A DNA stretch of 64,000 nt, taken from Clostridia bacterium. Lineage in GTDB: Bacteria > Bacillota > Clostridia > Christensenellales > Borkfalkiaceae. Each line of letters begins with the position of its first letter. The first letter of the stretch is position 1. The stretch lies in assembly GCA_017396365.1 (NCBI GenBank), contig JAFQMD010000008.1:1-64000 (forward strand). The letters are read 5' to 3'. Of this stretch, positions 5,310 through 62,114 are shown piece after piece. The translations under genes were made by a program, and so were the position numbers. The notes under the pieces were generated by a model. The model saw only the letters and a list, made by a program, of their open reading frames with translations, was not told the DNA's origin and searched no databases.

Positions 5310-8300
5310 TTATTCATAAGTTTTTTCAAGTAAATATACGTAGTATATTCCGCTTTGACCAACTTCTTCTGAATTTTCGCCGTAAACGTTTTTTATCTCG
5401 CTTACTTCATAATTTTCTACGTAAGAAACGTATTCGTCGTAAGAAGTAAAAGTATTCCACGTGCCAAACGGATCTAATACTAAATACACAAACGCGTCTT
5501 GGCTAAGTTTATAGCAGTCTTGAAGCCACATTGCGTCAATACATCCATAGTCCCAAACTTCTAACGCAAAGCCCATTCCGCTTGGTACAACGTGGAAAGT
5601 AGAAGTGAAATCATTACCCCATTGATCGTTATAGATAATCGAATTGTTTTCGCCTATTACGATAACTCTTCTCTCTTCTTCTACAAAATACGTTCCCATA
5701 AGTTTTTCGTAGTCGAGTTCGCATACAGCCCAAAGTTCGATGCCTTCTTTTCCGATAGCGAATAAATCTTGAACGGAAGTTACTACTTTAGTCATAGTTT
5801 CACTGCGGTATTCCCATTTACCTGTAAAAAGCATAAGATTGTAACACGGCTCAAGGTCAACCGTTGGATAAATCCACTCGGAGTCTTGTTGGTAAATAGA
5901 GCCCATATTGCCAAACTCGTCGTAACCGTTTTCAACCCAGCCGTATTCAGAATAGAAGGTTACTCTTACTTGGGTTAAAATTCTTGCATAAACGTATACG
6001 GTATCTTGCGACCATGCAACTACGCTGTCAAGTTCGTAATTCCAACAAAAATCTTCGTATTTTATCTCTACTCCGTATTCGCTCTTGACGAGTTCTAAAA
6101 GTCTTGCAAGCGTCACGTCTTCGGTATGATAGATAACGTATTCTTGACCTTCTACGGATAAGAAAATTCTCGGACGCACGTCGTACGCTTCAATGTCAAC
6201 CGCCCTTTCTATCGGGCTTGATACGTCTAACCAGTCGCCGTTATTCGTCCTGACGTTCCAACTGTAATTTTCAATTTGATAGTCGCCAAATTGCGCTAAA
6301 ATTTCGCTTAAAGAATAACTGTTTCCCTTTTCAAAGAACTTTTCGCCTTGCCATACGCCGTCTACGTTAAGAGTAACTCTAAACGTCTTTGCCGCAAATT
6401 TAACATAATATTCGGTACGATAGTTACGGTCGCCGTATTCTTGCGCAAACTCGGAATTAAACTTAAACTTATAGTCGTAATCGGTAAGAGTAACCGTTTC
6501 TCCGCTTGGTAAAGTTACGGTAATTTCGTAGTCTGAAAAACTACCCGAAATTCCAAAATAGTTTAAATCTATTTCTTCATAGCTTTCGTAATTCGACCTA
6601 TTGCAGTAGTCGTTTTCGTCGATAACTTCTACGTTTACGTAAACCATACCTTTTCTAATGCTTATATGGATTTCACCCTTATCTTCGTCAGAGAAAACGG
6701 TAGATTTAAACTCTTCTAACGAATAGCGCATATCGTTTATAAAAATCAACAAACTCGACCAGTCGTCCAAAATGTGTGCCATTTGTAAAATTTCTTCGCC
6801 GTTTAGCGCTTTATCGCTTATTATCTCAGGCTTATCATAATTTACGTTGTCTCCGCCTATATAGTACTTGATCGCTTTCGAAATTTCGATAATGCAATCA
6901 TCGTATATAAGATTATAGTAGTAATCAAAGTACGCGTCGGTTTTGCCCGATCCAAATAAAACTCCGTCAACTCTAATCGCGTAATTATACGGATCAGACC
7001 AAATTTCAACGTCTGGATTTAATTTCCTTAATTTCTCTTCTATAATTATGCTAACTGACGCCGGGCAATCAACGATTACTGTATAAGTTTCGATTTGGCT
7101 ATTAGAAGATTGCTTGTATTTTATAGTAACGGTAAATTCGTCGCTAAAGAGCGCGTTTTCAAAAAGCGTTAAATTGTCGCTTACTTTTTCGTCAAGGTCT
7201 TCAATCTTGCGTCCGTATCTGTACGCCGAATACTCGCTCGAGGATAAGCCGAGTTTTTCAATTACTTGTTCAACCGTCGGGGTTTGGGTTGCCTTGTATG
7301 AGAACTGTTGCCACTCGCCTTCATCATTTGCGGATATTATTTGATAACTTATATAATGAACGTACTCTACGCATTCTACTAAACAGTCCGCAGTTAAAAT
7401 ATCTCCATCAAACCCTTGTTCCATCTTTGCATAGAAATATTCAACGTGAAGCCCTAAGTCGCACCTATATCTTTCAAATACGACTTCTAAACTTACGGGA
7501 TAAGAATATTCATAAACTCTTTCGCCGTAGTCTGCGCTATTTACGGTAACTGTAAACGGCTCTATCGTAACCCTTGATAAAACGCCTACGATTATCGCGT
7601 ATTCGTCAATTACGTCGCTATCGCTTACTACGTTACCGCCAACCGTCCAAACGTAATAATATCCAAATTCTTGCGCTTGGGTTATTCTGTCTTGTAACCA
7701 ACCGCCGTCGGACTGCAAAATAAGCGATAAAGTGAAATCTTTTAACGCCCTTGTCTCTGCTTTTACACAAGTTTCTTGACATCCGCAATCGTAGAAAGGA
7801 TCGTTTTCGACGTAGTCGCCCATAAGCAAAACTACTCTATACTCACGGTAATGAGTTGGATAATAACCACATTCAGGGCAGGCGCTTCCGTCTTGTATAT
7901 TATCGTGCGGACATTCATAGCCACAGTTTGCACAGTAGCCGTACTCGTTCCAAACGTGTTCGTCGCATTTATTATCCCTATGATCGTATCTTACGGTTTC
8001 CCCACCGTTTAATTCGTAGTCTGAACTATAAACTATTACGCCGTCAACGTAAACGTCTCCGTTTTCAACGAACTGTGCAAAAGTAACGTAAACGAAAGGA
8101 TGCGGTAGGTTTTCTTCAAAAAGTCTTCCTATCGGATAACCTTTTGAAATTGATATATAACCGTTATAAAAATCGCTGTCAAAATAAATTTGAACTTTTT
8201 CAGGCGCTACGTATTCGTTATATCTAAACTCTATCGTGGTATTAACGTAAATTACGCTTTCTGCTGAAAGTTCTTCTCCGCAGTAGTAGAAAATACCATT

Positions 8301-11300
8301 TTCTTGTTCGATGAATTCTTCATAGCCAAACGGCGTATTCCTTTCGATAAGTTCTCTTAAAGTAATTTCCGTTCCGTCGATTTCAAAACTAACGATGCCA
8401 CCGACAGGAGTTCCATCAGGATTATAACTTACGACGGTTATAACGTTTTTGTCGCTTCCGCCTTGATTTACGTCTATATAAACTTCAATTAGACAGTTGC
8501 TTTCTATTAAGAAACTGTAAATATCGTCTATCGTTTTGCCGTTAACTCTTATTTCTTTAATATTTGATAGAATAACTTCAGTAAGACCCTTGTTGTTAAG
8601 TAAATCCATCAAGTAAATAGCATCTGTTTCAAAAACTTCTTTAATTTGTTCTACACCGTTTAAATCATACAGATAGAATTCTACCATATAAGTAGTTTGA
8701 ACAGGTGGAGCATAAGTTGCAAACTTAATTTCGATACTGCAAGAACCTTCAAAAACGAAAGAGTATTTATCTTGTTTTATGCCGTCTATAAAAATTTCTT
8801 CTACGTCGTTGAAAATCTCTTGCCATGAGTCATAAGTACAAATCCATTTAATAAGATCTTCAAACGTTGCGCCTTTTACAATCTCTACGTCGTGGCCATC
8901 GCTACCACCGTCTGCGTAAGCAAGTTTAACGTTAACCCAAATCGTTGATATTTCGGAATTAAAAGTTAAAAATTTAATCTTTATAGAGCCGTCTTCTTCA
9001 AATATCAAATTATAGAAATCAACGATTTCTTCATCGTTAAAGTTTACCGATTTAATATCTGCAAAAAGCATTGAAGACCAAGATGCGTAATCGCAAATTT
9101 TGTCTACAAAATCATAAAGATTTGCACCCTTTCTCATTTCTACGTTGCCATTTTCTACTATTCCGTCGGCAAAGACACATTCGTAATAAATATTTACAAA
9201 CTTTTCGTCTGGAACAGGGGCTTGTACCTTTAAAACCGTAACCAAATTATCCCCTTCTTTAAGTTGATAATCAGCACCCATCTTTTCGCCGTTTACAGTA
9301 ACGTTTTCTCTACCGATAAAGTCGTCTCCATAAGCGTAACCGAATACAATCGCAACGTCATTGATAGTAAACTCCGCTACGTCCATAGAAAGATAGAACA
9401 CACTTCTTTCAATTTCCATGCCGTTTTCGTCAACCTTTGTAGTTATAGCAAGGGCATAACGATTTGGCATAAATTGTTCGCTGTAATGTATATTTATTTG
9501 AGAAAATTGACCAAGCGAGTGATTTTCGTCTGTTATTTCAGCATTGCCAACGCTTATTGACGTAACCTTTTTAGAATCTATACCGGTATAAGCATAAAAC
9601 TCTTTGAGCGTAAGCACTGTTTCTGCAAAGTAAACTATAGAAGTAGCTTCTTTTGTTTCAACGTTGTAAAGAAGCGCAACGTAAACACTCTTTCTGTCTT
9701 CTTCTTCAACTGTTTCATCTGCAAACCTTACAAAAATCTTCGTTCCGTTTTTCAATTCATAACTATAAAGGTCTTCAACAGGTCTTTCTTTTTCGTCAAT
9801 TTCAAGATAGCAAATATTATTTATTTCGCTATCAAACATACCCCACGTTTTAAAGTAACTGTAAATGGTATGTCCTGCGTCCGTATCGTCAAAGTCTTCC
9901 CAAACTTCTCCGTTTGCAAATTCCATCCTTACGTAAACGGTAATCATATCTTGAGTTTGATTTTCACCACATCTTAAACATTTTCCGTTTACCATATCGT
10001 GTCCAAGCGCAGGTATTTCGGTTGGCTCTAAGAAAATTTCGTCGCAACCTTCGATACCGCACTTTAATCCCACCGTATAACCTACTTCCGTGCAAGTAGG
10101 AGCAACGGGGTCTATCGCCACAATTGACTGGTGCGTTGTGTTAGTTACAGTTTCGCTATCAAACGAATAACCACACTCACAAGCAAATTCAATATATGCT
10201 TCGTACACTATTTGCTTACCGTCGTCGATAACGTTTTCATGTAAAATTTGAGTGTAACTATGCGCATTTTCTTCAAGTCTTTGTCCACAACCATTATTAC
10301 ATTCAAAGTAATGATAATTGTCGTCCCAACAATATTCTCCGCTATGATCGTGACCGAGCATTGGAATATTTTCGCGGTTTAATTCTTCTCTACAGTTTTC
10401 TCTCGTGCAGTATTCAACCTTAAAGCCGTCTTCTTCACAAGTTGCGTCCTTTACGACTTCCCACTCGCCATTATGACCAAGAGCAGGGATTTTTTCGCGA
10501 TTTAATTCTTCTCTACAATTTTCTCTCGTGCAGTATTCAATCTTTAATCCTTCTTTGTTGCAAGTCGCCTCTCTTACAACTTCCCACTTGCCACTGTGCT
10601 CAAGCATTGGAATAACTTCACTATCTAGTTCAATACCGCAGTTTTCTCTTGTACAACGTTCAACTCTTAAACCTTCTTCATGACAAGTTGCGTCCTTTAC
10701 AACTTCCCACTCGCCATTGTGTTCAAGCATTGGAATAACTTCACTATCTAATTCAATACCGCAGTTTTCTCTTGTACAACGTTTTTCCTTTAAGCCTTCA
10801 TTTTGACAAGTTGCGTCCTTTACAACTTCCCACTCTCCGTTATGTCCTTTTGCAGGAATAACGCCAGTAGAAATGGTAATGCCACAGTTCTCTCTTTGAC
10901 ATACCGTATGTTTTGCGCCTTCTCCTTCGCAAGTTGCGTGTTTATCAATTATCCACTCGCTCTCGTCGTGGCCAAGCGCAGAGATAACTTCTTCTTCATA
11001 TCTCTTTTCACAACCTTTAACGGTACAATATTTTCCTTTTAATCCGTCTTCTTCGCAAGTCGCGTCTTTTTCAACTCTCCACTCTCCGCTGTGTCCTTTT
11101 GCAGGAATAACGTCAGTAGAAATGGTAATGCCACAGTTCTCTCTTTGACATACAGTATGCTTTGCGCCTTCTTCTTCGCAAGTTGCGTGCTTATCAATTA
11201 TCCAGTCGCTCTCGTCGTGTCCAAGCGCAGGGATAACGCCAGTAGAAATGGTAATGCCACAATTCTCTCTTTGACATACAGTATGCTTTGCGCCGTCTTC

Positions 11301-13829
11301 TTCACAAGTTGCGTGTTTATCAATTATCCACTCGCCCTCACTATGTCCAAGCGCAGGGATGGTTTCTTCGGCTAATTCCTTTCCACACTCTTCTTTGGTA
11401 CAGTATTTAACTTTTAAACCGCTTTCTTCGCAAGTTGCCTTTCTATCAACTCTCCAAGCCTCGCTATGTCCTTTTGCAGGAATAACGCCCGTTGAAATTC
11501 TCTTTCCGCAACCGTCTCTTTGACAAACGGTATATTTTACGCCGTTTTCTTCGCAAGTTGCGTCGGTTTCCACTTTCCAGTCGCTCTCGTCGTGATTTAG
11601 CGCAGGGATAGTTTCTTCGGCTAATTTCTTTCCACACTCTTCTTTGGTGCAGTATTTGACTTTTAATCCGTTTTCTTCACAAGTTGCGTTGGTTTCTACT
11701 TTCCAGTCGCTCTCGTCGTGTCCCTTTGCTAAGATAACGCCCGTTGAAATTCTCTTTCCACAACCGTCTCTTTGACAAACGGTATATTTTACGCCGTTTT
11801 CTTCGCAAGTTGCGTCGGTTTCTACTTTCCAGTCGCTCTCGTCGTGTCCGAGTTTAGCAAGGGTTGAACGGTGGCTATCCGTACAGTTATCACATTTATA
11901 AACGACGTATCCGTCTTGTTCGCAAGTTGGTTTTACCCTTTCTATTTCTCTGTAAACGTGTCCTTTTTTCTCAAGAACTTTTTCGTCCAAAACCTTTCCG
12001 CAACCCTGTCTTTGACAACGTTTATACGCAACGCCATTTTCCGTACAAGTCGGCTCGGTTTGGGTTTCCCAACCGCCTTCGTCGTGCGAAAGCGCCTTTC
12101 TGCCTACTCTTCTTTCTATTTTATGGCATACCGAACACTCTTTCTTGAAAATTTCATCGTTTTCGCAAGAAAGTTCGGTTTCTATGGTTTCAGCGCCGAA
12201 CGAGTGTCCTACTTTTTCAACGAAATCGGTCTTTTTGGTATGTCCACAACCAGAACAAGTATGAAGAGTGTAACCTTCTTTCGTACAGGTCGGCTCTATA
12301 ACTTCCGTATTATAATTGTGGGTATGCCCGAGTTTCGGCGTAATAACGTATCCGCAAACGGTACAAGTTTCGGCTTTTGTTTCGGTTGCGTTTCCGCTTG
12401 AAACGTGCTCTCCCAAAGAATTTTTATCGTCGCAACGCGAGCATTCTTTGTAATGGGTTTCTTCGTCGTAACTCCAAGCGTTTGAGTAGTCGTGTCCTAA
12501 TTTGTCAATAACTACGCTACTTAAATAATTTCCTTGTAAGTCGTAATCTTTCTGACAGTTTTCGCAATGATTATGGGCAATCGTTCCGTTTTCTTCGCAA
12601 GTTGCTTGCTTACCTGAAACGAAAACAAAATCGTGTCCGCCCTTTACGGTAATTTTTATTATTTTTTGGCAATTTTCGCATTGCTTTGCATTTTTATAAC
12701 CGTCTTGCTCGCAAGTTGGCGCTTTGTCGGGAATACTTACCCAACTGTGATTATGCCTTGCGCAAATTAAATAGTTACATACAACGCAAATCTCGTCTTG
12801 TTCGCAAGTCGCCGAGTTAGACGCGCGGTGCTCGCCTTGATTTATAACGCTATCGCAGTTATCTCTCAAACAAATTTGTCTATGTCCGTTTTCGTCGATT
12901 TCCCACTTATAAACGTGCCCTATCGCTCCGTAGGTTACTACCGTTTCAAAGTCGCAATTTACACAACTTACGACGAACGAACCGTCCTGTTCACAGGTGG
13001 CTTTTGTTTCAGTAAATACTATATCGTGATGAGTAACGGCGTTTTGTAAGCCGAGTTCGTCTTCCGCATAACCACAATCTTGACAAACGTGGAACTTAAC
13101 GACGGTTGAACTGCACGAACTTGCTCCAACTTCTATCCACTCGCCAAAATTATGCTCGCTCGTCGCAGGGAATTCGTCTTCGCAAACTCTACAAAAATTA
13201 ACGGCGCACGAGTAGGCGTTGTTTAATATATGGTCGGATAATTCACCGTAAGCAAAATAATCGGTATTTGAAATTTCTCCGCAAACGCCACAAGTTTTCC
13301 AGTACGTCGCCTTGCTCTCACACGTTTGATTCGAGCGCAACGTTCTTCCCGAAACTTCTTCTACCAAATCGTGAGCAAGTTTGGGAATAGGCGTTCCGTC
13401 CGTCTCTTCTCCGCAAACCGAACACTTTTCATACAGCAAGCCTTCTTCTTCGCAAGTTGGCTCTTTTTCAAACTTTTCAAAGTCGTGCTCTAAAAGAGCA
13501 AGTTCTCTTTCTCGTTCCTTTCCACAAGTTTCGCAAACTGACTTTTCAAGCCCTTTTTCACTACAAGTAGATTGACTTTTTGTAGTCCACTCGCCAAAAG
13601 TGTGCCCGATTGCAGGAATAACTCTTGTAGAAGTTTCGCCACAAGAACACGTTGCAGTCTCTTCTCCGTCCGTTTCACAACTCGCTTGAGTGGTTACTTG
13701 CCAGTTTTCAAATTGACATTGATGTCCGCTCTCTGAACTGCTTTCTCCAGGCTTTTGACAAGCAAATAGACAAAGAGAAAAAACCACGGTTAATACGAGT
13801 AGTAAAATACCTTTAATTTTGCTTTTCAT
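5310..13829 (-). CDS. Giant Cys/His-repeat surface lipoprotein (2839 residues)
   Basis: An N-terminal signal peptide ends in LFAC with the lipobox Cys at residue 24, so the protein is probably lipid-anchored outside the membrane. Residues 35 to about 1290 are Cys-rich units ending in GH. Within them, residues 662-1159 form twelve regular 41-42-residue units with the pattern C-x9-C-x4-C and a His at each junction. A C-C-C-H set per unit could bind zinc or form disulfides (inference). Residues 1290-2839 lack this pattern and contain loosely repeated beta-rich segments of about 75-80 residues (for example VYVRMEFANG, YYECVFADG, VNVKLAYADGG). There is no sortase motif. AGGAGAGGG precedes the ATG. 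It lies 15 bases after the small-multidrug-export-family gene. Function unknown; adhesion is one possibility. Confidence 0.85.
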   Translation of the reverse strand: MKSKIKGILLLVLTVVFSLCLFACQKPGESSSESGHQCQFENWQVTTQASCETDGEETATCSCGETSTRVIPAIGHTFGEWTTKSQSTCSEKGLEKSVCETCGKERERELALLEHDFEKFEKEPTCEEEGLLYEKCSVCGEETDGTPIPKLAHDLVEEVSGRTLRSNQTCESKATYWKTCGVCGEISNTDYFAYGELSDHILNNAYSCAVNFCRVCEDEFPATSEHNFGEWIEVGASSCSSTVVKFHVCQDCGYAEDELGLQNAVTHHDIVFTETKATCEQDGSFVVSCVNCDFETVVTYGAIGHVYKWEIDENGHRQICLRDNCDSVINQGEHRASNSATCEQDEICVVCNYLICARHNHSWVSIPDKAPTCEQDGYKNAKQCENCQKIIKITVKGGHDFVFVSGKQATCEENGTIAHNHCENCQKDYDLQGNYLSSVVIDKLGHDYSNAWSYDEETHYKECSRCDDKNSLGEHVSSGNATETKAETCTVCGYVITPKLGHTHNYNTEVIEPTCTKEGYTLHTCSGCGHTKKTDFVEKVGHSFGAETIETELSCENDEIFKKECSVCHKIERRVGRKALSHDEGGWETQTEPTCTENGVAYKRCQRQGCGKVLDEKVLEKKGHVYREIERVKPTCEQDGYVVYKCDNCTDSHRSTLAKLGHDESDWKVETDATCEENGVKYTVCQRDGCGKRISTGVILAKGHDESDWKVETNATCEENGLKVKYCTKEECGKKLAEETIPALNHDESDWKVETDATCEENGVKYTVCQRDGCGKRISTGVIPAKGHSEAWRVDRKATCEESGLKVKYCTKEECGKELAEETIPALGHSEGEWIIDKHATCEEDGAKHTVCQRENCGITISTGVIPALGHDESDWIIDKHATCEEEGAKHTVCQRENCGITISTDVIPAKGHSGEWRVEKDATCEEDGLKGKYCTVKGCEKRYEEEVISALGHDESEWIIDKHATCEGEGAKHTVCQRENCGITISTGVIPAKGHNGEWEVVKDATCQNEGLKEKRCTRENCGIELDSEVIPMLEHNGEWEVVKDATCHEEGLRVERCTRENCGIELDSEVIPMLEHSGKWEVVREATCNKEGLKIEYCTRENCREELNREKIPALGHNGEWEVVKDATCEEDGFKVEYCTRENCREELNRENIPMLGHDHSGEYCWDDNYHYFECNNGCGQRLEENAHSYTQILHENVIDDGKQIVYEAYIEFACECGYSFDSETVTNTTHQSIVAIDPVAPTCTEVGYTVGLKCGIEGCDEIFLEPTEIPALGHDMVNGKCLRCGENQTQDMITVYVRMEFANGEVWEDFDDTDAGHTIYSYFKTWGMFDSEINNICYLEIDEKERPVEDLYSYELKNGTKIFVRFADETVEEEDRKSVYVALLYNVETKEATSIVYFAETVLTLKEFYAYTGIDSKKVTSISVGNAEITDENHSLGQFSQINIHYSEQFMPNRYALAITTKVDENGMEIERSVFYLSMDVAEFTINDVAIVFGYAYGDDFIGRENVTVNGEKMGADYQLKEGDNLVTVLKVQAPVPDEKFVNIYYECVFADGIVENGNVEMRKGANLYDFVDKICDYASWSSMLFADIKSVNFNDEEIVDFYNLIFEEDGSIKIKFLTFNSEISTIWVNVKLAYADGGSDGHDVEIVKGATFEDLIKWICTYDSWQEIFNDVEEIFIDGIKQDKYSFVFEGSCSIEIKFATYAPPVQTTYMVEFYLYDLNGVEQIKEVFETDAIYLMDLLNNKGLTEVILSNIKEIRVNGKTIDDIYSFLIESNCLIEVYIDVNQGGSDKNVITVVSYNPDGTPVGGIVSFEIDGTEITLRELIERNTPFGYEEFIEQENGIFYYCGEELSAESVIYVNTTIEFRYNEYVAPEKVQIYFDSDFYNGYISISKGYPIGRLFEENLPHPFVYVTFAQFVENGDVYVDGVIVYSSDYELNGGETVRYDHRDNKCDEHVWNEYGYCANCGYECPHDNIQDGSACPECGYYPTHYREYRVVLLMGDYVENDPFYDCGCQETCVKAETRALKDFTLSLILQSDGGWLQDRITQAQEFGYYYVWTVGGNVVSDSDVIDEYAIIVGVLSRVTIEPFTVTVNSADYGERVYEYSYPVSLEVVFERYRCDLGLHVEYFYAKMEQGFDGDILTADCLVECVEYVHYISYQIISANDEGEWQQFSYKATQTPTVEQVIEKLGLSSSEYSAYRYGRKIEDLDEKVSDNLTLFENALFSDEFTVTIKYKQSSNSQIETYTVIVDCPASVSIIIEEKLRKLNPDVEIWSDPYNYAIRVDGVLFGSGKTDAYFDYYYNLIYDDCIIEISKAIKYYIGGDNVNYDKPEIISDKALNGEEILQMAHILDDWSSLLIFINDMRYSLEEFKSTVFSDEDKGEIHISIRKGMVYVNVEVIDENDYCNRSNYESYEEIDLNYFGISGSFSDYEITVTLPSGETVTLTDYDYKFKFNSEFAQEYGDRNYRTEYYVKFAAKTFRVTLNVDGVWQGEKFFEKGNSYSLSEILAQFGDYQIENYSWNVRTNNGDWLDVSSPIERAVDIEAYDVRPRIFLSVEGQEYVIYHTEDVTLARLLELVKSEYGVEIKYEDFCWNYELDSVVAWSQDTVYVYARILTQVRVTFYSEYGWVENGYDEFGNMGSIYQQDSEWIYPTVDLEPCYNLMLFTGKWEYRSETMTKVVTSVQDLFAIGKEGIELWAVCELDYEKLMGTYFVEEERRVIVIGENNSIIYNDQWGNDFTSTFHVVPSGMGFALEVWDYGCIDAMWLQDCYKLSQDAFVYLVLDPFGTWNTFTSYDEYVSYVENYEVSEIKNVYGENSEEVGQSGIYYVYLLEKTYE
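10353..11846 (-). repeat. Tandem 41-42-codon repeat tract in the giant gene
   Basis: Twelve in-frame units of 123-126 bp. Units near 11500-11846 alternate between two types (cores GVKYTVCQRDGCGK and GLKVKYCTKEECGK), while units at 10353-10860 share HNGEWEVVKDATC. The alternation suggests duplication of pairs of units. Such tracts can change copy number by recombination. Confidence 0.85.
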
Positions 13830-20942: not shown

Positions 20943-22406
20943 ATGAAAAAATCAAGCGGAATACTAATGCCCGTGTTTGCCCTACCCGGTAAATACGGTA
21001 TAGGAACTTTTGGCAAAGAATCGTACGACTTTATAGATTTTTTGGCGCAATCGGGACAAAGAGTTTGGCAAATGCTACCCCTTTCGCAAACGGTTTACGG
21101 CGACAGCCCTTATCAAACGACTGCCGACTGCTCTTTTAACCCCTATTTTTGCGATTTGGACGAACTGTTTTCTCTCGGTCTTTTAACTAAAAAAGAATTG
21201 AAAAACGCAAGTTCAAAAGTTTCTAAAATTGATTACGGAAAACTTTATTTTGAGCGTACGGCTCTGCTTAAAAAGGCTTTTTCAAGATTTGATTATTCGG
21301 ACGAATTTTTAACTTTCGTCAATTCGAAAAAATATCGCGATTACGCTATTTTTATGACGGCAAAAGACCGTTTCGGCTCTCTTTCCGACTTCCCCGCTTG
21401 GTTAAAAACCCTAAATAAACGACTTATAGACAAGTTTATTGATGAAAACAGTCAAGATTTTTTGTTTTATAACTTTACGCAGTTTATTTTAGAAAGACAA
21501 TTCTTTCGCCTTAAAAAATACGCAAACGATAAGGGAATAAAACTGTTTGGCGACCTACCGCTTTACGTTGCGTTAGACAGCGCTGACGTTTGGAAAAACA
21601 AATCGCAGTTTTTGCTTGACGACGATTATAAGCCAAGCCTTGTAGCAGGCGTTCCGCCCGATTATTTTTCTCAAGACGGTCAACTTTGGGGAAACCCCAT
21701 TTACGACTACGACCAAATGAAAAAAGACGGGTTTAAATGGTGGAAAAACCGTCTTAAAAGAAGTTTAGAAAGATACGATATATTAAGAATTGACCATTTT
21801 AGAGGGCTTGACAGATTTTGGGCTATACCCTTTGGCGAAAGCGCAAAATCGGGCGAGTGGACTAAGGCGTACGGTGAAGAAATTTTACTTTCGGTAAATA
21901 AAAAACGCCTTGTCGCAGAGGACCTTGGCGTAATTGACGACGGCGTTATAAACCTTTTAAAAAACACGGGGCTTCCCGGTATGAAAGTGTTGCTATTTGC
22001 CTTTGACGGCAATCCCGACAACCCGTATTTACCTAAAAATATTCCGTCGCAAAGCGTTGCGTACGTTGGCACGCACGACAACGACACGGCAAGGGGATTT
22101 GTAAACGGATTAAACGACGAGCAGTTTGCAAGTTTTAAAAACAGCGTAAATAGCGTTTTGCCCGTCGGCGTTAAAAAGGTAAGGGGTAGGAAATGCGTTG
22201 CTCCAGCCTTGATAGAAACGGCTTTATCCACAAGCGCAAATTTAGTTATTTTGTCTTTTGCCGACCTGCTTAATTTAGATAACGAGTATAGAATAAACAC
22301 TCCGTCAACGGTCGGGAATTGGACGGTTAGATTTAAGCAAAATCATTTCCCAAACGACCTTTGCAAAAGTCTTAAATCCCTTGCTAAAAAATACGGTAGA
22401 ATTTAA
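20943..22406 (+). CDS. malQ: 4-alpha-glucanotransferase (amylomaltase)
   Basis: 487 residues, GH77. It transfers alpha-1,4-glucan segments in maltodextrin or glycogen metabolism. Catalytic motifs: LRIDHFRGLDRFW (Asp nucleophile), VAEDLG (acid/base Glu) and VGTHDND (transition-state Asp). The N-terminal GDSPYQTTADCSFNPYF is a family hallmark. TTGGAG precedes the ATG. It is last in the dapF-dapL-malQ unit and is followed by a strong terminator; no other glycogen genes are in the window. Confidence 0.94.
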   Translation: MKKSSGILMPVFALPGKYGIGTFGKESYDFIDFLAQSGQRVWQMLPLSQTVYGDSPYQTTADCSFNPYFCDLDELFSLGLLTKKELKNASSKVSKIDYGKLYFERTALLKKAFSRFDYSDEFLTFVNSKKYRDYAIFMTAKDRFGSLSDFPAWLKTLNKRLIDKFIDENSQDFLFYNFTQFILERQFFRLKKYANDKGIKLFGDLPLYVALDSADVWKNKSQFLLDDDYKPSLVAGVPPDYFSQDGQLWGNPIYDYDQMKKDGFKWWKNRLKRSLERYDILRIDHFRGLDRFWAIPFGESAKSGEWTKAYGEEILLSVNKKRLVAEDLGVIDDGVINLLKNTGLPGMKVLLFAFDGNPDNPYLPKNIPSQSVAYVGTHDNDTARGFVNGLNDEQFASFKNSVNSVLPVGVKKVRGRKCVAPALIETALSTSANLVILSFADLLNLDNEYRINTPSTVGNWTVRFKQNHFPNDLCKSLKSLAKKYGRI

Positions 22407-23554: not shown

Positions 23555-24829
23555 TTAAACCTTTATCTCTACGTATTCTTGAGAGTAAAGTATACATTCT
23601 TGTCCTCTTTCGTCGTAATAACTTATACCAATCGTGGCAAGTCCGTCTAAATATTGATCGGTAGGTATAACTATTTCGACCTGTTGTCCCGTTGTTTGAA
23701 CATATCCAAACAAAGTGTCGTCAACGAAATCTACGTCGTAAACCCACACGGCGAGAAGATAAGTTTCGCCAACATCGTTTACCGAAGTGTTCCAAATTCC
23801 GTTTTCATCTATAAAATTTACGGTTACTTTAAGCGTTGATCCGTCTTGAGACGGCGTTACGGTTACGTTTTCGATAGCAGTTCTCTTTTCGTAAAGTTCA
23901 ACTTCGCTTTGATAAAGAATTACCGTTTCAAAAATGTCGCTCGTATCCGTTGACGAGCCTGCGCCTTGCTTTTTCTTCATTCCCACGACTTCAACGTAGC
24001 CGTTACTCGTATGGAAGATATCTTTGACGTTTATTTCAACTTGCTGTCCTACCCTGTTTTCGACAATCTCTCCGCTTTCCTCGTTTTTGTAATAAATTCG
24101 CTCCTCAAAATTAAACGATCCGCTTACAACGTCATTTTCGTATAGTCTTACGTAAATTCGACTGTAAATTGCAAGTAAACTCTCCTTGACATTGGCTATA
24201 TAAACAAACTGTCCGTCCGCGCTTTTTGCTGGAATATAGTCAAATTCAACTTTGGGTTTTGACGAAGTATCTTTGTCGGGCTCTTGCTCTATATCGGGCT
24301 TTGGATTTTCACCGTTAGTTTTTACCCGTCGTTTTTCCACCGTCTCTTTAAGCCCGTCGGCAAATTTTACGCTTAAGGTGTATTCCATATTCGGCGCAAG
24401 ATTTGTAAATTCACCCTGATTTTCGCCCGTTTTTAAACTCTCTTCCCTATGCGTAAAATCGTTTTCAAGCGTTACTATAAGTTCTGATTGAGTTTCTATA
24501 ACGTCTATTTGATAACTAATTTCCTGCGTTCCTGCCCAAATTTCCAAAACGTCGATTTCGGCTTTTCGCGGTGAAAGAATTCCGCTCCCCACGGTCGCCG
24601 TAACGGTTACGACGGTAGCGACTAAAATATTCGCAAGGGCAACCCCCTTGCCTTTTTTCGTCGCCGTTTTCTTTTTTCCCTTTTTCGTTTCTAAACTCGT
24701 CTCTTTGGGGGGCTCGTTATGCAAAGAAGAAAAGGACTCTTGCGCAGTTTGGTTTAATTCTTTAACCTGTTCGTTGTCTTTAAACGACGAAATTTCAGAA
24801 TAATTACCGTTATTATATTCGTTAAACAC
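23555..24829 (-). CDS. Single-pass membrane protein with an extracellular beta-rich domain
   Basis: 424 residues. The first 60 are polar and then Lys-rich (KKGKKKTATKKGKG), followed by one hydrophobic helix (VALANILVATVVTVTATVG), so the N-terminus is cytoplasmic and the rest extracellular. A fibronectin-III-like segment follows the helix (LAPNMEYTLSVKF), then a Pro/Asp/Lys linker and further beta-rich repeats. The GTG at 24829 is chosen because AAGGAGGA lies just upstream; a TTG eight codons earlier would place the Shine-Dalgarno inside the gene. Function unknown. Confidence 0.72.
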   Translation of the reverse strand: MFNEYNNGNYSEISSFKDNEQVKELNQTAQESFSSLHNEPPKETSLETKKGKKKTATKKGKGVALANILVATVVTVTATVGSGILSPRKAEIDVLEIWAGTQEISYQIDVIETQSELIVTLENDFTHREESLKTGENQGEFTNLAPNMEYTLSVKFADGLKETVEKRRVKTNGENPKPDIEQEPDKDTSSKPKVEFDYIPAKSADGQFVYIANVKESLLAIYSRIYVRLYENDVVSGSFNFEERIYYKNEESGEIVENRVGQQVEINVKDIFHTSNGYVEVVGMKKKQGAGSSTDTSDIFETVILYQSEVELYEKRTAIENVTVTPSQDGSTLKVTVNFIDENGIWNTSVNDVGETYLLAVWVYDVDFVDDTLFGYVQTTGQQVEIVIPTDQYLDGLATIGISYYDERGQECILYSQEYVEIKV

Positions 24830-24853
24830 ACAGTCCTCCTTCGTTTTTTTCAA

Positions 24854-25022: not shown

Positions 25023-25114
25023 TGTGGAAAAACATACTCAAAATGTGGATAAGTCCCCCTTTTTGACAAAAGTTATCCACATTTATCCACAAAAACATTC
25101 GTTCGTGTGGGTAA
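25023..25114. other. DnaA-box cluster, candidate origin or DnaA-binding locus
   Basis: Three perfect TTATCCACA boxes: 25044-25052 (minus), 25073-25081 (plus), 25083-25091 (plus). Two one-mismatch boxes lie at 25023-25031 and 25106-25114 (both minus). The left side (24880-25020) is very A+T-rich and could unwind. Genes diverge on either side. Five boxes in 92 bp is much denser than at the dnaN-proximal candidate. It may be the origin, a DnaA-titration site, or a DnaA-controlled promoter region. Confidence 0.75.
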
Positions 25115-25174: not shown

Positions 25175-25879
25175 ATGAAATTAAACTCGGTAGAAAAAAA
25201 GTGGTCTTATTTGTCCGTTTTCGCATGCGCTTTAACGGCTGTTTTACTTGGCGTTTGGGCGACTTTAAACGTAGCGGACGCAAATGCAAAAACTCACTAC
25301 GAGTCTTTCGTCGTAGTAATCGACGCAGGGCACGGCGGAATTGACGCAGGCGTTTTGGGTAAAACTTCAAAAGTCAAAGAAAGCGACCTAAATTTAGATA
25401 TAGCAAAAAAATTGAAAACTCATTTTGAAAAGGCTGGTATAAAAGTCGTAATGACAAGAACTTCTTACGGCGGTCTTTACGGAACGACTGCAAAGGGGTT
25501 TAAAAAACGGGATATGCAAAACCGAATAAAAATCATCAACGACGCGAACGCCGACGTTATGATTTCTCTACATTTAAACTTTTTTTCGTCTTCAAAAACA
25601 CGTGGGGCGACTGCGTTTTTCAACGCCGACGACAAAAACAGTAAGGCTCTTGCCGAGTCAATTCAGCGATTTTTTAATCTGTCAAGCGGGCAAACTCGTG
25701 ATTTGTCGGCGTTAAAAGGCGATTATTTTCTTTTAAACCAAGCAAATTGTCCTGCCGTCATTTGCGAGTGTGGGTTTTTATCAAACGAAGAAGAAGAAAA
25801 ACTGCTACTTACCGAAACTTATCGCCAAGAACTTTCCGAACTCATTTTCAAAGGCGCAACGGCGTTTTTGCTTTCTTAA
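25175..25879 (+). CDS. N-acetylmuramoyl-L-alanine amidase (Amidase_3, CwlD-like)
   Basis: 234 residues. A single N-terminal hydrophobic segment (about 12-36) is a signal or anchor. The Amidase_3 domain has zinc ligands His53 (DAGHGG), Glu69 and His133 (SLHLNF), and catalytic Glu198 (CECGFLSN). It cleaves the bond between muramic acid and the peptide. Size and single-domain layout fit CwlD, which makes muramic-lactam in spore cortex, but a vegetative role is equally possible. GGGG precedes the ATG. Confidence 0.9.
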   Translation: MKLNSVEKKWSYLSVFACALTAVLLGVWATLNVADANAKTHYESFVVVIDAGHGGIDAGVLGKTSKVKESDLNLDIAKKLKTHFEKAGIKVVMTRTSYGGLYGTTAKGFKKRDMQNRIKIINDANADVMISLHLNFFSSSKTRGATAFFNADDKNSKALAESIQRFFNLSSGQTRDLSALKGDYFLLNQANCPAVICECGFLSNEEEEKLLLTETYRQELSELIFKGATAFLLS

Positions 25880-25912: not shown

Positions 25913-25941
25913 TTGAAAACCCCTTTGAAAAATGATACAAT
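25913..25941 (+). promoter_or_regulatory. Promoter of the helicase-exonuclease gene
   Basis: TTGAAA (25913-25918), 17-base spacer, TACAAT (25936-25941), 30 bases before the ATG at 25971. Confidence 0.7.
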
Positions 25942-25970
25942 ACAAGTATCAAAAAAAGGGGGTAGTAGTT

Positions 25971-28559
25971 ATGCTCAATTTTACTAAAGAACAAAAATAT
26001 ATAATTGAAGAAGATTTAAGCAATTTGCTCCTCCTTGCAAGAGCCGGCTCTGGCAAAACTTTCACCGTGGCTAACAAAATTGCGCGCGCTATTGAAAAAG
26101 GCGTCCGTCCCGAAGAAATTTTATGTATAACCTTTACCGTAAAAGGAGCAAGCGAACTTAAAGACGACGTTAAAAAATATTGCGGAAAGGACGGCGTAAA
26201 CGTCTTTACCATACACGGATTTTGCTATAATCTTATAAAAAACCATCTAAAAAATAGCGCGTACATGCGCGAACCGCTCATAGCAGACGAAGTTGACGTT
26301 GGCGAAACTCTTGCAAAAATCTTGTTAGTTTTTGCCGAAAGCGAAGATTACACGCTTACCGACGGCGCGCCACTTCTCCCCGAAAAGCAACTTGCAAAAA
26401 TAATGTCGCAGATAAAACACAAAAGGGACGAACTCGGCTTTGACTACTTGTCCGAAGACGGTTACGGCGTTACCGTAAACTCTTTGATAGAAGGTAGCGC
26501 GTCTTTTATTTCGCTTTTTTCTATTAAAAAACAAGGCGTAAAAATAACCGACTATTCCCTTTTAGAACTTTTAAAGAAAAAGGGTAAAGACTTCTGCCTT
26601 GCGTATCAAAGGTATCTAAGGGCTTCTTCTCTTTTAGATTTCGACGACTTAATTTTCTTTGCAAAGAGCCTGCTTTTTAGCGATAATTATAAAAAGCCTG
26701 CCTATAAGTTGATTATCGTTGATGAAATGCAAGATACGAGCATGCTCGAATATCAAATTGCCAAACGCTTTTTCGTAGACGCGCAAGTTTTAATGTGTGG
26801 CGACCCGTACCAAACCATATACTCGTGGCGCGGTTCTTCCCCGTTTGATATAATGCAAGATTTTGTAAAAAACTACGGCGCAAAAACCGTCAATTTAAAC
26901 GCAAATCACCGCTCGTCGAAACTTTTAAATTACGCAGGGCAATACTACTTAGCAAAGACTTTTAATGACGGCTTTTTGCAAGTTCCCACCTTAGACGATA
27001 TCGCCGAAGAAAAAATCGACGTCGTCGAGTGTTACGACGCCTTAGACGAAGCCGACTATATTTTCGACTATATAAAAAATTATAAGGGAGATTCTACTTC
27101 CCTTTGCATTATGGCAAGGTCGAACAGGTATTTGGCAAATCTTTATAAGCGTTTTGAAAGCAGAAATTTAACTTTACCAAAGGAAAATAGGCTGTCGTTT
27201 TTTACAGCTGATTCTGATTTTCAGTTTTATAAAAAACCCGTGGTAAAGGACTTTTTAAGTTTTTTGCGACTTTTGGTAAACCCCAACGACCAAACGGCTT
27301 TTTCTCGCATTGCCGAAAAATATATTAGCGGTGTTGGAAAAGAAACCGTTTCGGCGTTTAAAGATTTCGGCGCGTATTCGCTTTCTCTTTCGTCTTTTTT
27401 AAAAAGTGAAACCTACGATAAATTAGATCCATTTTTTACCCTAATCTCTGCCTATAAGTCGAAAAACGTCGTAGTTTACGATTTGGAAACGACGGGACTC
27501 GACCTTGAAAAAGACGAGATTATTCAAATATCCGCAAAAAAACTTACGGGCGAAGAATTCAATAGATTCGTTATCCCCAAAGGGCAAATTTCCGAAAAAG
27601 CGCTCCATACCCACGGCTACGATTTAGAACATATTTTATCGCACGGCGGAAAAGACGCCAAGTCAGTTTTGACCGATTTTGTCAAATTTGCTAACGGCTG
27701 TGTTTTAGTCGGACACAATAGCGGAAACTTCGACGATTTTATTTTAACCCGTCAACTTGAAGAAAACGCTATTGATTTCGATTTTGTTGACCGTTGCGAT
27801 ACTTTATCGCTTGCCCAAACCATCTTGCCAAACCTTATAAATTACAAACTTTCGACTTGTTGCGAGCATTTCGGTATCGTCAACCAGAGGGCTCACGACG
27901 CTTTTGCCGACGTAGAAGCGACTTTTAGCGTTTTCGTGAAATTTATGGACGACTTTATAATTCCGCAAGTTGACGCGAGAAAAAGAATAATATCCAAACG
28001 CTCGGCAAAATTTAATGCTTTTTACAAAGATTACGTAACTATGCAAGAATTTTTATCTAACGGGCAAACGCTTGCCCTTATAAAATTCATAGACCAAAAT
28101 TACGGGGTTTTAAGACAAAACGGCAAAGATAGCGACAGGGAGTCGGCAAACGACCTATACCGAACTTTAAAATCTCTTGAAAATAGTAGAAATAAAACGC
28201 TTTGGCTAAAATCGTTTTTGTCGGACACCGCGCTTTCGGGTAGCCAACTCGACGTTATTATTAAAAAACACGGTAAAATTCCACTTATTACCGTTCATCA
28301 ATCAAAGGGATGCGAATTTGAAACGGTTATTCTTGCAGGGGCGAGCGAAAACGAAATGCCGTCTTACGGAGCAAGACAAAGCGGAGATGAAACCGAAGAA
28401 AAACGAATTTTTTACGTCGCGCTATCTCGCGCGAAAACAAAATTTATTGCAACTTATCCGTCAAAACACGTAGTTGGGCAAAACGTTTATCAAAGAAACC
28501 CGTCGCCTTATCTTGCAAAATTGCCAAAAAGCGCCGTAGAAAATAAGCGTACGTACTAA
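25971..28559 (+). CDS. UvrD/Rep-family helicase with an inserted DEDDh exonuclease domain
   Basis: 862 residues. Superfamily 1A helicase motifs: Walker A ARAGSGKT (23-30), IHGFCYNLI, Walker B DEMQDTS (251-257), GDPYQTIYSWRG (277-288), NANHRSS (310-316), then VHQSKGCEFETVI (775-787) and FYVALSRAKTK (814-824). A complete DnaQ-like exonuclease is inserted at about 497-665: DLETTG (504-509), NFDDF (586-590) and HDAFAD (642-647) supply the acidic residues and His. The protein could unwind DNA and trim 3' ends. AGGGGG lies before the ATG at 25971; an upstream ATG at 25932 lies inside the promoter and is rejected. Confidence 0.9.
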   Translation: MLNFTKEQKYIIEEDLSNLLLLARAGSGKTFTVANKIARAIEKGVRPEEILCITFTVKGASELKDDVKKYCGKDGVNVFTIHGFCYNLIKNHLKNSAYMREPLIADEVDVGETLAKILLVFAESEDYTLTDGAPLLPEKQLAKIMSQIKHKRDELGFDYLSEDGYGVTVNSLIEGSASFISLFSIKKQGVKITDYSLLELLKKKGKDFCLAYQRYLRASSLLDFDDLIFFAKSLLFSDNYKKPAYKLIIVDEMQDTSMLEYQIAKRFFVDAQVLMCGDPYQTIYSWRGSSPFDIMQDFVKNYGAKTVNLNANHRSSKLLNYAGQYYLAKTFNDGFLQVPTLDDIAEEKIDVVECYDALDEADYIFDYIKNYKGDSTSLCIMARSNRYLANLYKRFESRNLTLPKENRLSFFTADSDFQFYKKPVVKDFLSFLRLLVNPNDQTAFSRIAEKYISGVGKETVSAFKDFGAYSLSLSSFLKSETYDKLDPFFTLISAYKSKNVVVYDLETTGLDLEKDEIIQISAKKLTGEEFNRFVIPKGQISEKALHTHGYDLEHILSHGGKDAKSVLTDFVKFANGCVLVGHNSGNFDDFILTRQLEENAIDFDFVDRCDTLSLAQTILPNLINYKLSTCCEHFGIVNQRAHDAFADVEATFSVFVKFMDDFIIPQVDARKRIISKRSAKFNAFYKDYVTMQEFLSNGQTLALIKFIDQNYGVLRQNGKDSDRESANDLYRTLKSLENSRNKTLWLKSFLSDTALSGSQLDVIIKKHGKIPLITVHQSKGCEFETVILAGASENEMPSYGARQSGDETEEKRIFYVALSRAKTKFIATYPSKHVVGQNVYQRNPSPYLAKLPKSAVENKRTY

Positions 28560-60580: not shown

Positions 60581-60599
60581 AGTTATATATTACCACAAC

Positions 60600-61005
60600 C
60601 AAAAAAAACTTTCAATTAAAAGTTATCCTTATAAAAAATCTTTTTTATTGACGAACGTTGATAAGTATTGATAACTTTATGGATAACTCTTTTATTTTAG
60701 TTTATTTTATACTTTTGCCTTAAATTGATTGCTTTTTTTTCAGTTATTATTTATAATAATATATATATTATTATACAATAGTAATTTACCTTTTGGGAAA
60801 ACTATAAAAAAGTTATCAATAATTTATTAACTTTCATTTTTACTTATCAATCGTTTATCCACTTTATTTTTAAAATTATCAACTTTAAAAAATTACGATA
60901 AATAAAGGAATTTTAATAAAAATAGAGCACTTTTCCATAAATTCATATTCCATACTATTACTACTATTAAATTAATCTATAAAAAATATAATTTCAATCG
61001 AGGAA
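60600..61005. other. Candidate replication origin between rsmG and dnaN
   Basis: A 430-bp gene-free gap between divergent genes. DnaA-box-like sites: 60678-60686 (minus, 8/9) and 60855-60863 (plus, 8/9), plus several weaker TTATCAAT/C and TTATCCTTA sites around 60623, 60655-60675, 60811, 60844 and 60877. A very A+T-rich stretch with ATATATATTATTAT lies at 60745-60775 and could be the unwinding element. No perfect TTATCCACA is present. Confidence 0.62.
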
Positions 61006-61010
61006 CACAC

Positions 61011-62114
61011 ATGAAAATTATCGTAAACGGAAACGACCTTTCAAATGCAGTAATGAAAGTATCGAAAGCAATCAGCGTAAAGACTACGAATCCTATTTTA
61101 GAAGGTATAAAATTATCCGTACAAGGCGATTTGTTGACGTTGTCTGCAACGGATATGGAAATTGCTATTGAAAAAACTATAATAAGCGATACCTTTATGG
61201 AAGGTAAAACGGTAGTTCCGGGTAAAATTTTTGCAGAGTTCGTTAAAAAACTTGAAAATGAAGAACAAGTAGAACTCGTTTTAGAAGAAGATTCTAAACT
61301 TAAAATAGTTTACGGCTCTTCCGAAGTATATTTATCCGTTCTTTCAGCAGATCAATTTCCAAGTATTGAAAAAACGAGTAGAGAAAACGCCTTTTCCTTA
61401 CTTCAAAAAGATTTTAAAGACCTTATAAATAAAACTGTATTTTCTTGTTCAACCGACGAAAGTAGGCCGATACTTAAAGGTTGTTTGTTTGAAATTGAAG
61501 ACGACGAATTAACTTGCGTTGCTATCGACGGTTTTAGGCTTGCCGTAGCAAAGAAAAAAGTTAGAAATTTAAACGATTCTTTCAAGGTAGTAGTTCCTGC
61601 GCGTTCTTTAAATGAAATTTGTAGATTACTTGAAAACGACGACCAAGAAATTACCTTTATAAACGAAGGTAACAAGTTTATGATTGAAGTTGAACAAACG
61701 GTATTTATAACGAGGCTTTTAGAAGGAAATTTCGTAAACTATAAACAAATAATTCCAAACGAGTTTTTAACGACGGTAAAAGTAAGTAAAATTGCTTTTT
61801 TAAGCAGTTTAGAAAGGGCTACGGTAGTTGCTAAAGAGTCTAAAAATTTAGTAAAACTCGATATCAAAGAAAATTATATAAACGTTTCGGCAAACAGCGA
61901 GAGCGGTAACGTAAACGAAAACGTAATTATAAATTTAGAAGGTAAAGATTTATCGATTGCTTTTAACTCTAAGTATCTTTGCGACGCGCTAAAAGCATCA
62001 GGGGATGAATTTGTGAATATTTACTTAAACAGTTCAATTTCTCCGTGCGTAATAAAACCTTACTCTGGCGACGAATATCTCTATTTAATTCTTCCTATTC
62101 GTATAAATTCATAA
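61011..62114 (+). CDS. dnaN: DNA polymerase III beta subunit (sliding clamp)
   Basis: 367 residues, three clamp domains of about 120 residues. N-terminal MKIIVNGNDLSNAVMKVSKAI; family motifs TNPILEGIKL, FSCSTDESRPILKGCLFE, AIDGFRLA and the C-terminal YLILPIRI, part of the protein-binding pocket (M/L-P-x-R). It forms the ring that tethers the polymerase. dnaA, usually directly upstream, is missing; the candidate origin lies there instead. CGAGGA precedes the ATG. Confidence 0.96.
   Translation: MKIIVNGNDLSNAVMKVSKAISVKTTNPILEGIKLSVQGDLLTLSATDMEIAIEKTIISDTFMEGKTVVPGKIFAEFVKKLENEEQVELVLEEDSKLKIVYGSSEVYLSVLSADQFPSIEKTSRENAFSLLQKDFKDLINKTVFSCSTDESRPILKGCLFEIEDDELTCVAIDGFRLAVAKKKVRNLNDSFKVVVPARSLNEICRLLENDDQEITFINEGNKFMIEVEQTVFITRLLEGNFVNYKQIIPNEFLTTVKVSKIAFLSSLERATVVAKESKNLVKLDIKENYINVSANSESGNVNENVIINLEGKDLSIAFNSKYLCDALKASGDEFVNIYLNSSISPCVIKPYSGDEYLYLILPIRINS

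Follow-up and report, generated by a model that had tools for sequence, protein, structure and literature searches.

Within the window, that is, the whole 64 kb stretch of DNA analysed here, a pattern scan located three perfect and two one-mismatch DnaA boxes within 92 bp (25023-25114). The cluster occupies a 321 bp gap of 25.5% GC, flanked by a divergent ORF and by the gene for a CwlD-like N-acetylmuramoyl-L-alanine amidase, which is adjoined by a UvrD-like helicase gene in most members of the genus (Table 1). The preliminary description had placed the same boxes at exactly these coordinates, next to an A+T-rich stretch and between divergent genes, and both observations hold. Against profile TIGR02883, the amidase scores 174.6 bits, below that profile's cut-off of 221.55. 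Elsewhere in the window, a 2839-residue ORF (5310-13829, minus strand) returned zero Pfam matches.

Table 1. Features of the DnaA-box cluster, its flanking genes and the dnaN region, in window coordinates.
Feature	Coordinates	Strand	Remarks
Divergent ORF, no assigned function	23555..24853	-	other flank of the cluster; ortholog at this place in G003 only
DnaA box 1	25023..25031	-	TTTTCCACA, 1 mismatch; position conserved in genus
DnaA box 2	25044..25052	-	perfect TTATCCACA; position conserved in genus
DnaA box 3	25073..25081	+	perfect; position conserved in genus
DnaA box 4	25083..25091	+	perfect; position conserved in genus
LexA-like palindrome AAAC-ATTC-GTTC	25093..25104	.	GAACGAATGTTT on the reverse strand; flanked by inverted boxes 4 and 5
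DnaA box 5	25106..25114	-	TTACCCACA, 1 mismatch; position conserved in genus
CwlD-like N-acetylmuramoyl-L-alanine amidase (Amidase_3)	25175..25879	+	PF01520, 6.9e-42; usual gene downstream of such clusters
UvrD-like helicase with inserted DnaQ-like (RNase_T) exonuclease domain	25932..28559	+	53 bp past the amidase
rsmG-dnaN gap, most likely oriC	60581..61010	.	degenerate DnaA boxes, A+T-rich
DnaA-trio run CTATTACTACTATTA	60955..60969	+	complement of 3'-GAT/AAT-5' trios, B. subtilis orientation; 41 bp before dnaN
dnaN	61011..62114	+	TIGR00663, 6.2e-91

The density of boxes at this site is far beyond chance. In 60 order-1 random sequences of 64 kb, no 92 bp segment held more than two boxes with up to one mismatch or more than one perfect box, compared with the five and three observed. 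The assembly to which the window belongs (36 contigs, 1.70 Mb, 91% complete) contains 29 perfect boxes, against 19 matches to a reversed control pattern, and the cluster is the only place in it where perfect boxes lie less than 100 bp apart. Once the cluster was masked, boxes with up to one mismatch were not in excess in the window (22, against a mean of 20.2 with sd 11.9 for permuted 9-mers). Single perfect boxes also occur inside genes at window positions 22224, 29751 and 38189, a mildly high count (three, where permuted 9-mers gave a mean of 0.57). The affinity of these boxes for DnaA was judged from their sequence alone. Domain IV of the organism's own DnaA (C3:84299-85606, L028) reads GGRDYTTIIHA, with a tyrosine in place of the histidine of RDHTT, the usual motif, as in E. 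coli and B. subtilis DnaA. Because of this replacement, the exact box preference of the protein could differ.

A LexA-like palindrome is embedded between boxes 4 and 5, and a RAAC-N4-GTTY element is found at the same place in all ten copies of the cluster in the genus; all ten have the half-sites RAAC/GTTY, but the centre varies among them. In this genus, lexA promoters have GAACAAATGTTT or a close variant of it; the organism's own LexA is encoded at C15:27605-28192. The palindrome in the window is one mismatch from this sequence, and that of G002 is identical to the lexA site of G005. LexA binding at the palindrome is a reasonable guess. Upstream of recA in eight same-genus genomes, no LexA site of the genus type was found, and the one loose match was in the organism's own genome. 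The latter also has a pair of LexA-like sites upstream of a gene for a radical SAM protein, which resembles a family that we take to be annotated as DNA-repair-associated.

The architecture of the cluster is strongly conserved in the genus. Box starts follow one another at +21, +29, +10 and +23 bp from box 1 to box 5, with strands (-), (-), (+), (+) and (-), and this spacing is kept almost to the base. Across seven sequences, the mean fraction of the most frequent base was 0.79 inside the cluster versus 0.50 and 0.46 in its flanks. With the amidase protein as query, 30 loci were collected from relatives, and at least three boxes were found upstream of the amidase in 14 of them: seven from genomes of the genus, three from other genera of the family (G016, G018 and G019) and four from other families (G026, G031, G037 and G039). 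The same threshold was reached in only four of 2820 random 300 bp windows and in none of 16 lexA upstream regions. A family-wide pattern search turned up more clusters linked to the amidase, in genera g5 and g32, and other gut Clostridia have them as well, at GTDB loci L100, L107 and L112. Several families of the order thus have clusters analogous to the one described here, as predicted from box patterns, ahead of their orthologues of the CwlD-like amidase. In other genera the linkage to the amidase is retained but box spacing is different. The linkage is not universal, since roughly half of the relatives sampled have an amidase without boxes, among them G012, G013 and most of the family's other genera. 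Because the relatives are draft assemblies, the absence of a cluster in any one of them can reflect contig breaks. The dnaA promoter was considered as a further DnaA-rich site and rejected, with only 0 or 1 box in the 300 bp upstream of dnaA across 17 family members.

Several related arrangements were encountered. The distance between dnaN and the amidase with its boxes is about 2 kb in two Clostridiales MAGs (L100 and L107) and about 8 kb in G032; the amidase is therefore often near the origin. Larger clusters of 7-15 boxes occur in genera g10, g28, g11 and g2 (L070-L076); that of L076 falls between rsmG and dnaN, and the others lack both genes in the 3 kb fetched. A second group of three perfect boxes in a genus member (L264:6807-6863, on G008:C8) is situated after an RNase HII gene and just upstream of an RlmL-like methyltransferase gene, and G073 has three perfect boxes (C1:219145-219258) on the contig that also carries its amidase cluster. 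In G010 (C42:1-460; L044 / L271), only the LexA-like palindrome and box 5 of the cluster remain. Other sequence takes the place of its left portion and ends in the C-terminal part of an apparent large serine recombinase, as though a mobile element had inserted itself among the boxes.

The most likely oriC lies about 36 kb from the cluster, in the gap between rsmG and dnaN. As had been described previously, this gap has no perfect DnaA box, but that account left unmentioned its many weak box-like words (TTATCCATA, TTATCCACT, TTATCAAT and TTATCAAC) and its DnaA-trio run. The latter is the sole run in the 64 kb with at least four such triplets, of which at least two are CTA. Comparable runs start 47-60 bp upstream of dnaN in L186-L190, L194 and L206, and trio-like runs upstream of dnaN are visible in the g32 genomes G073, G045, G093, G083 and G060, the first four of which also have the amidase cluster. 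Across the family, the gene before dnaN is mostly a divergent rsmG. In the genome analysed here, dnaA sits apart from dnaN, on contig C3. The layout of the gap, with weak boxes and trios towards dnaN, is that of a BUS-type origin of DnaA boxes and DnaA-trios (PMC8287927), whereas the cluster has strong boxes and no trio.

With oriC placed at dnaN, the locus presents several DnaA boxes clustered outside oriC, and it is probably a non-origin DnaA-box cluster of the B. subtilis type with a buffering function, a regulatory function or both; this estimate, drawn from sequence comparison, overlaps with those for the two single-role readings discussed below. By analogy with the B. subtilis clusters, we propose both roles, DnaA buffering and control of the amidase. 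DnaA bound across boxes 1-5 would form a nucleoprotein complex whose geometry is fixed. By keeping DnaA from the weak oriC boxes, such a complex would damp or delay initiation; by covering the sequence immediately ahead of the amidase (and helicase) genes, it would make a cell-wall hydrolase be expressed in step with DnaA activity. The LexA-like operator inside the complex may add control by DNA damage. The boxes, their conservation, the linkage to the amidase, the lack of origin features at the cluster and the trio at dnaN are observed; the binding of DnaA and of LexA, the sequestration of DnaA and the direction in which regulation runs are inferred.

The nearest known counterparts are in B. 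subtilis, where non-origin DnaA-box clusters were described by Okumura et al. 2012, as summarised in PMC5295017, and where joint removal of six clusters led to early initiation (PMC5295017). DnaA binding regions in this species lie near sda, ywlC, ywcI/vpr, trmE, yydA and gcp/ydiF, and DnaA regulates genes at several of the clusters (PMC4447404). They resemble the present cluster in having several close DnaA boxes outside oriC, mostly upstream of genes (PMC5295017, PMC4447404). They belong to a different lineage, and, unlike the cluster described here, which is known from sequence alone, none of the six is reported in the parts of these sources drawn upon to lie upstream of a cell-wall amidase or to contain a LexA-like palindrome. 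A second counterpart is E. coli datA, which likewise has five strong DnaA boxes away from oriC and is proposed to exert negative control of initiation; its own features are a length of about 1 kb, a need for IHF and the promotion of DnaA-ATP hydrolysis (PMC5295017). A literature search for DnaA boxes combined with amidase control or with LexA boxes found none among the papers covered, and those naming both DnaA and cwlD suggest, in their titles and abstracts, no DnaA control of the amidase.

Rearranged copies of the cluster bear on how far each role can stand by itself. It is possible, if doubtful, that the cluster is only a DnaA-responsive operator of the amidase, serving as a repressor or activator site with no part in replication timing. 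The linkage to the amidase persists across many genera and several families despite differing spacing, and the boxes are close to the amidase start, within about 20 bp in the g5 genomes. In G002, the amidase has been inverted with respect to the helicase together with its cluster, the two forming a single block, which favours amidase control. Two other copies count against an operator-only role. That of G004 keeps the genus spacing although the genes on its two sides converge; it has hairpin-like terminator sequences on either side, and the amidase lies beyond one further gene. The B. subtilis gcp/ydiF cluster likewise sits between convergent gene ends (PMC4447404). That of G011 has a tyrosyl-tRNA synthetase gene nearby, and its contig contains no amidase. 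Since these copies break the linkage, amidase control cannot be the sole role, unless they are decaying.

The same two copies, kept without an adjacent amidase, favour DnaA sequestration. A cluster acting only as a DnaA sink or a datA-like locus controlling DnaA activity, with the amidase as an incidental neighbour, is nevertheless rather unlikely. Its fixed architecture, its strong boxes as against the weak ones at oriC and its position 36 kb from oriC would all suit a sink, but one and the same gene would not recur beside the cluster in several families if it were there incidentally, and in G002 amidase and cluster moved jointly. The comparative evidence thus lends support to two earlier suggestions, a second site that binds and titrates DnaA (conservation, the G004 and G011 copies) and a DnaA-regulated control region of the amidase (linkage, the G002 inversion). 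A further, unlikely extension is a dual DnaA/LexA switch, in which DnaA on the inverted boxes around the LexA operator would couple both initiation and DNA damage to the expression of the amidase and the UvrD-like helicase, while buffering free DnaA. If true, this would join origin firing, the SOS response and wall hydrolysis in one cis element.

The preliminary description had also raised the possibility that the cluster is the actual origin. A chromosomal origin displaced here from dnaA and dnaN is highly improbable, although the cluster is the only tight group of perfect boxes in the genome, adjoins an A+T-rich stretch and belongs to a chromosome in which dnaA is not adjacent to dnaN. Evidence from the contig itself is mixed: its raw GC skew climbs at the cluster, from -0.111 to +0.016, which favours an origin there, and also at the dnaN gap, from -0.044 to +0.106; third-position skew changed at neither place, and its change points gave no usable signal. 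The cluster has no DnaA-trio, the trio and degenerate boxes being at dnaN instead, and no trio run was found in the 450 bp upstream of any of the 30 amidases. Two relatives carry the cluster on long contigs, G073 from the same family (g32) and G026 from another, and in neither does the sign of gene orientation or skew change across it. In G073, gene counts pass from 5+/38- to 4+/43- and the skew is negative on both sides (-0.022/-0.042). At dnaN of the same genome, on another contig, genes pass from 15+/24- to 19+/15-, the skew turns from negative (-0.022) to positive (+0.013), and its minimum lies 18 kb away. In G026, genes pass from 7+/34- to 11+/34- at the cluster, and the skew, negative on both sides, falls steadily through it. 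In G031, which also belongs to a different family, the skew reaches its minimum at dnaA-dnaN, and the amidase boxes are 57 kb from there. The origin reading was therefore rejected mainly because of the trio at dnaN, gene context and the relatives, the skew of the contig itself being mixed; lacking a trio, and with no skew or orientation switch in relatives, the cluster is best read as a non-origin DnaA-box cluster. An origin left over or borrowed from a plasmid or phage is barely credible: DnaA-box clusters do occur in such replicons, but here the spacing and the neighbouring amidase are vertically conserved in genus and order, and no replication-initiator gene was recognised beside the cluster.

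If the reading as a non-origin cluster with buffering and/or regulatory function is right, such clusters would extend to a large lineage of uncultured gut Clostridia. It would also mean that the densest box cluster can misplace an origin, the probable origin here having weak boxes and a DnaA-trio while the strongest boxes lie elsewhere. Finally, a DnaA-box cluster tied to a peptidoglycan amidase across several families would be a candidate for coupling replication initiation to cell separation.
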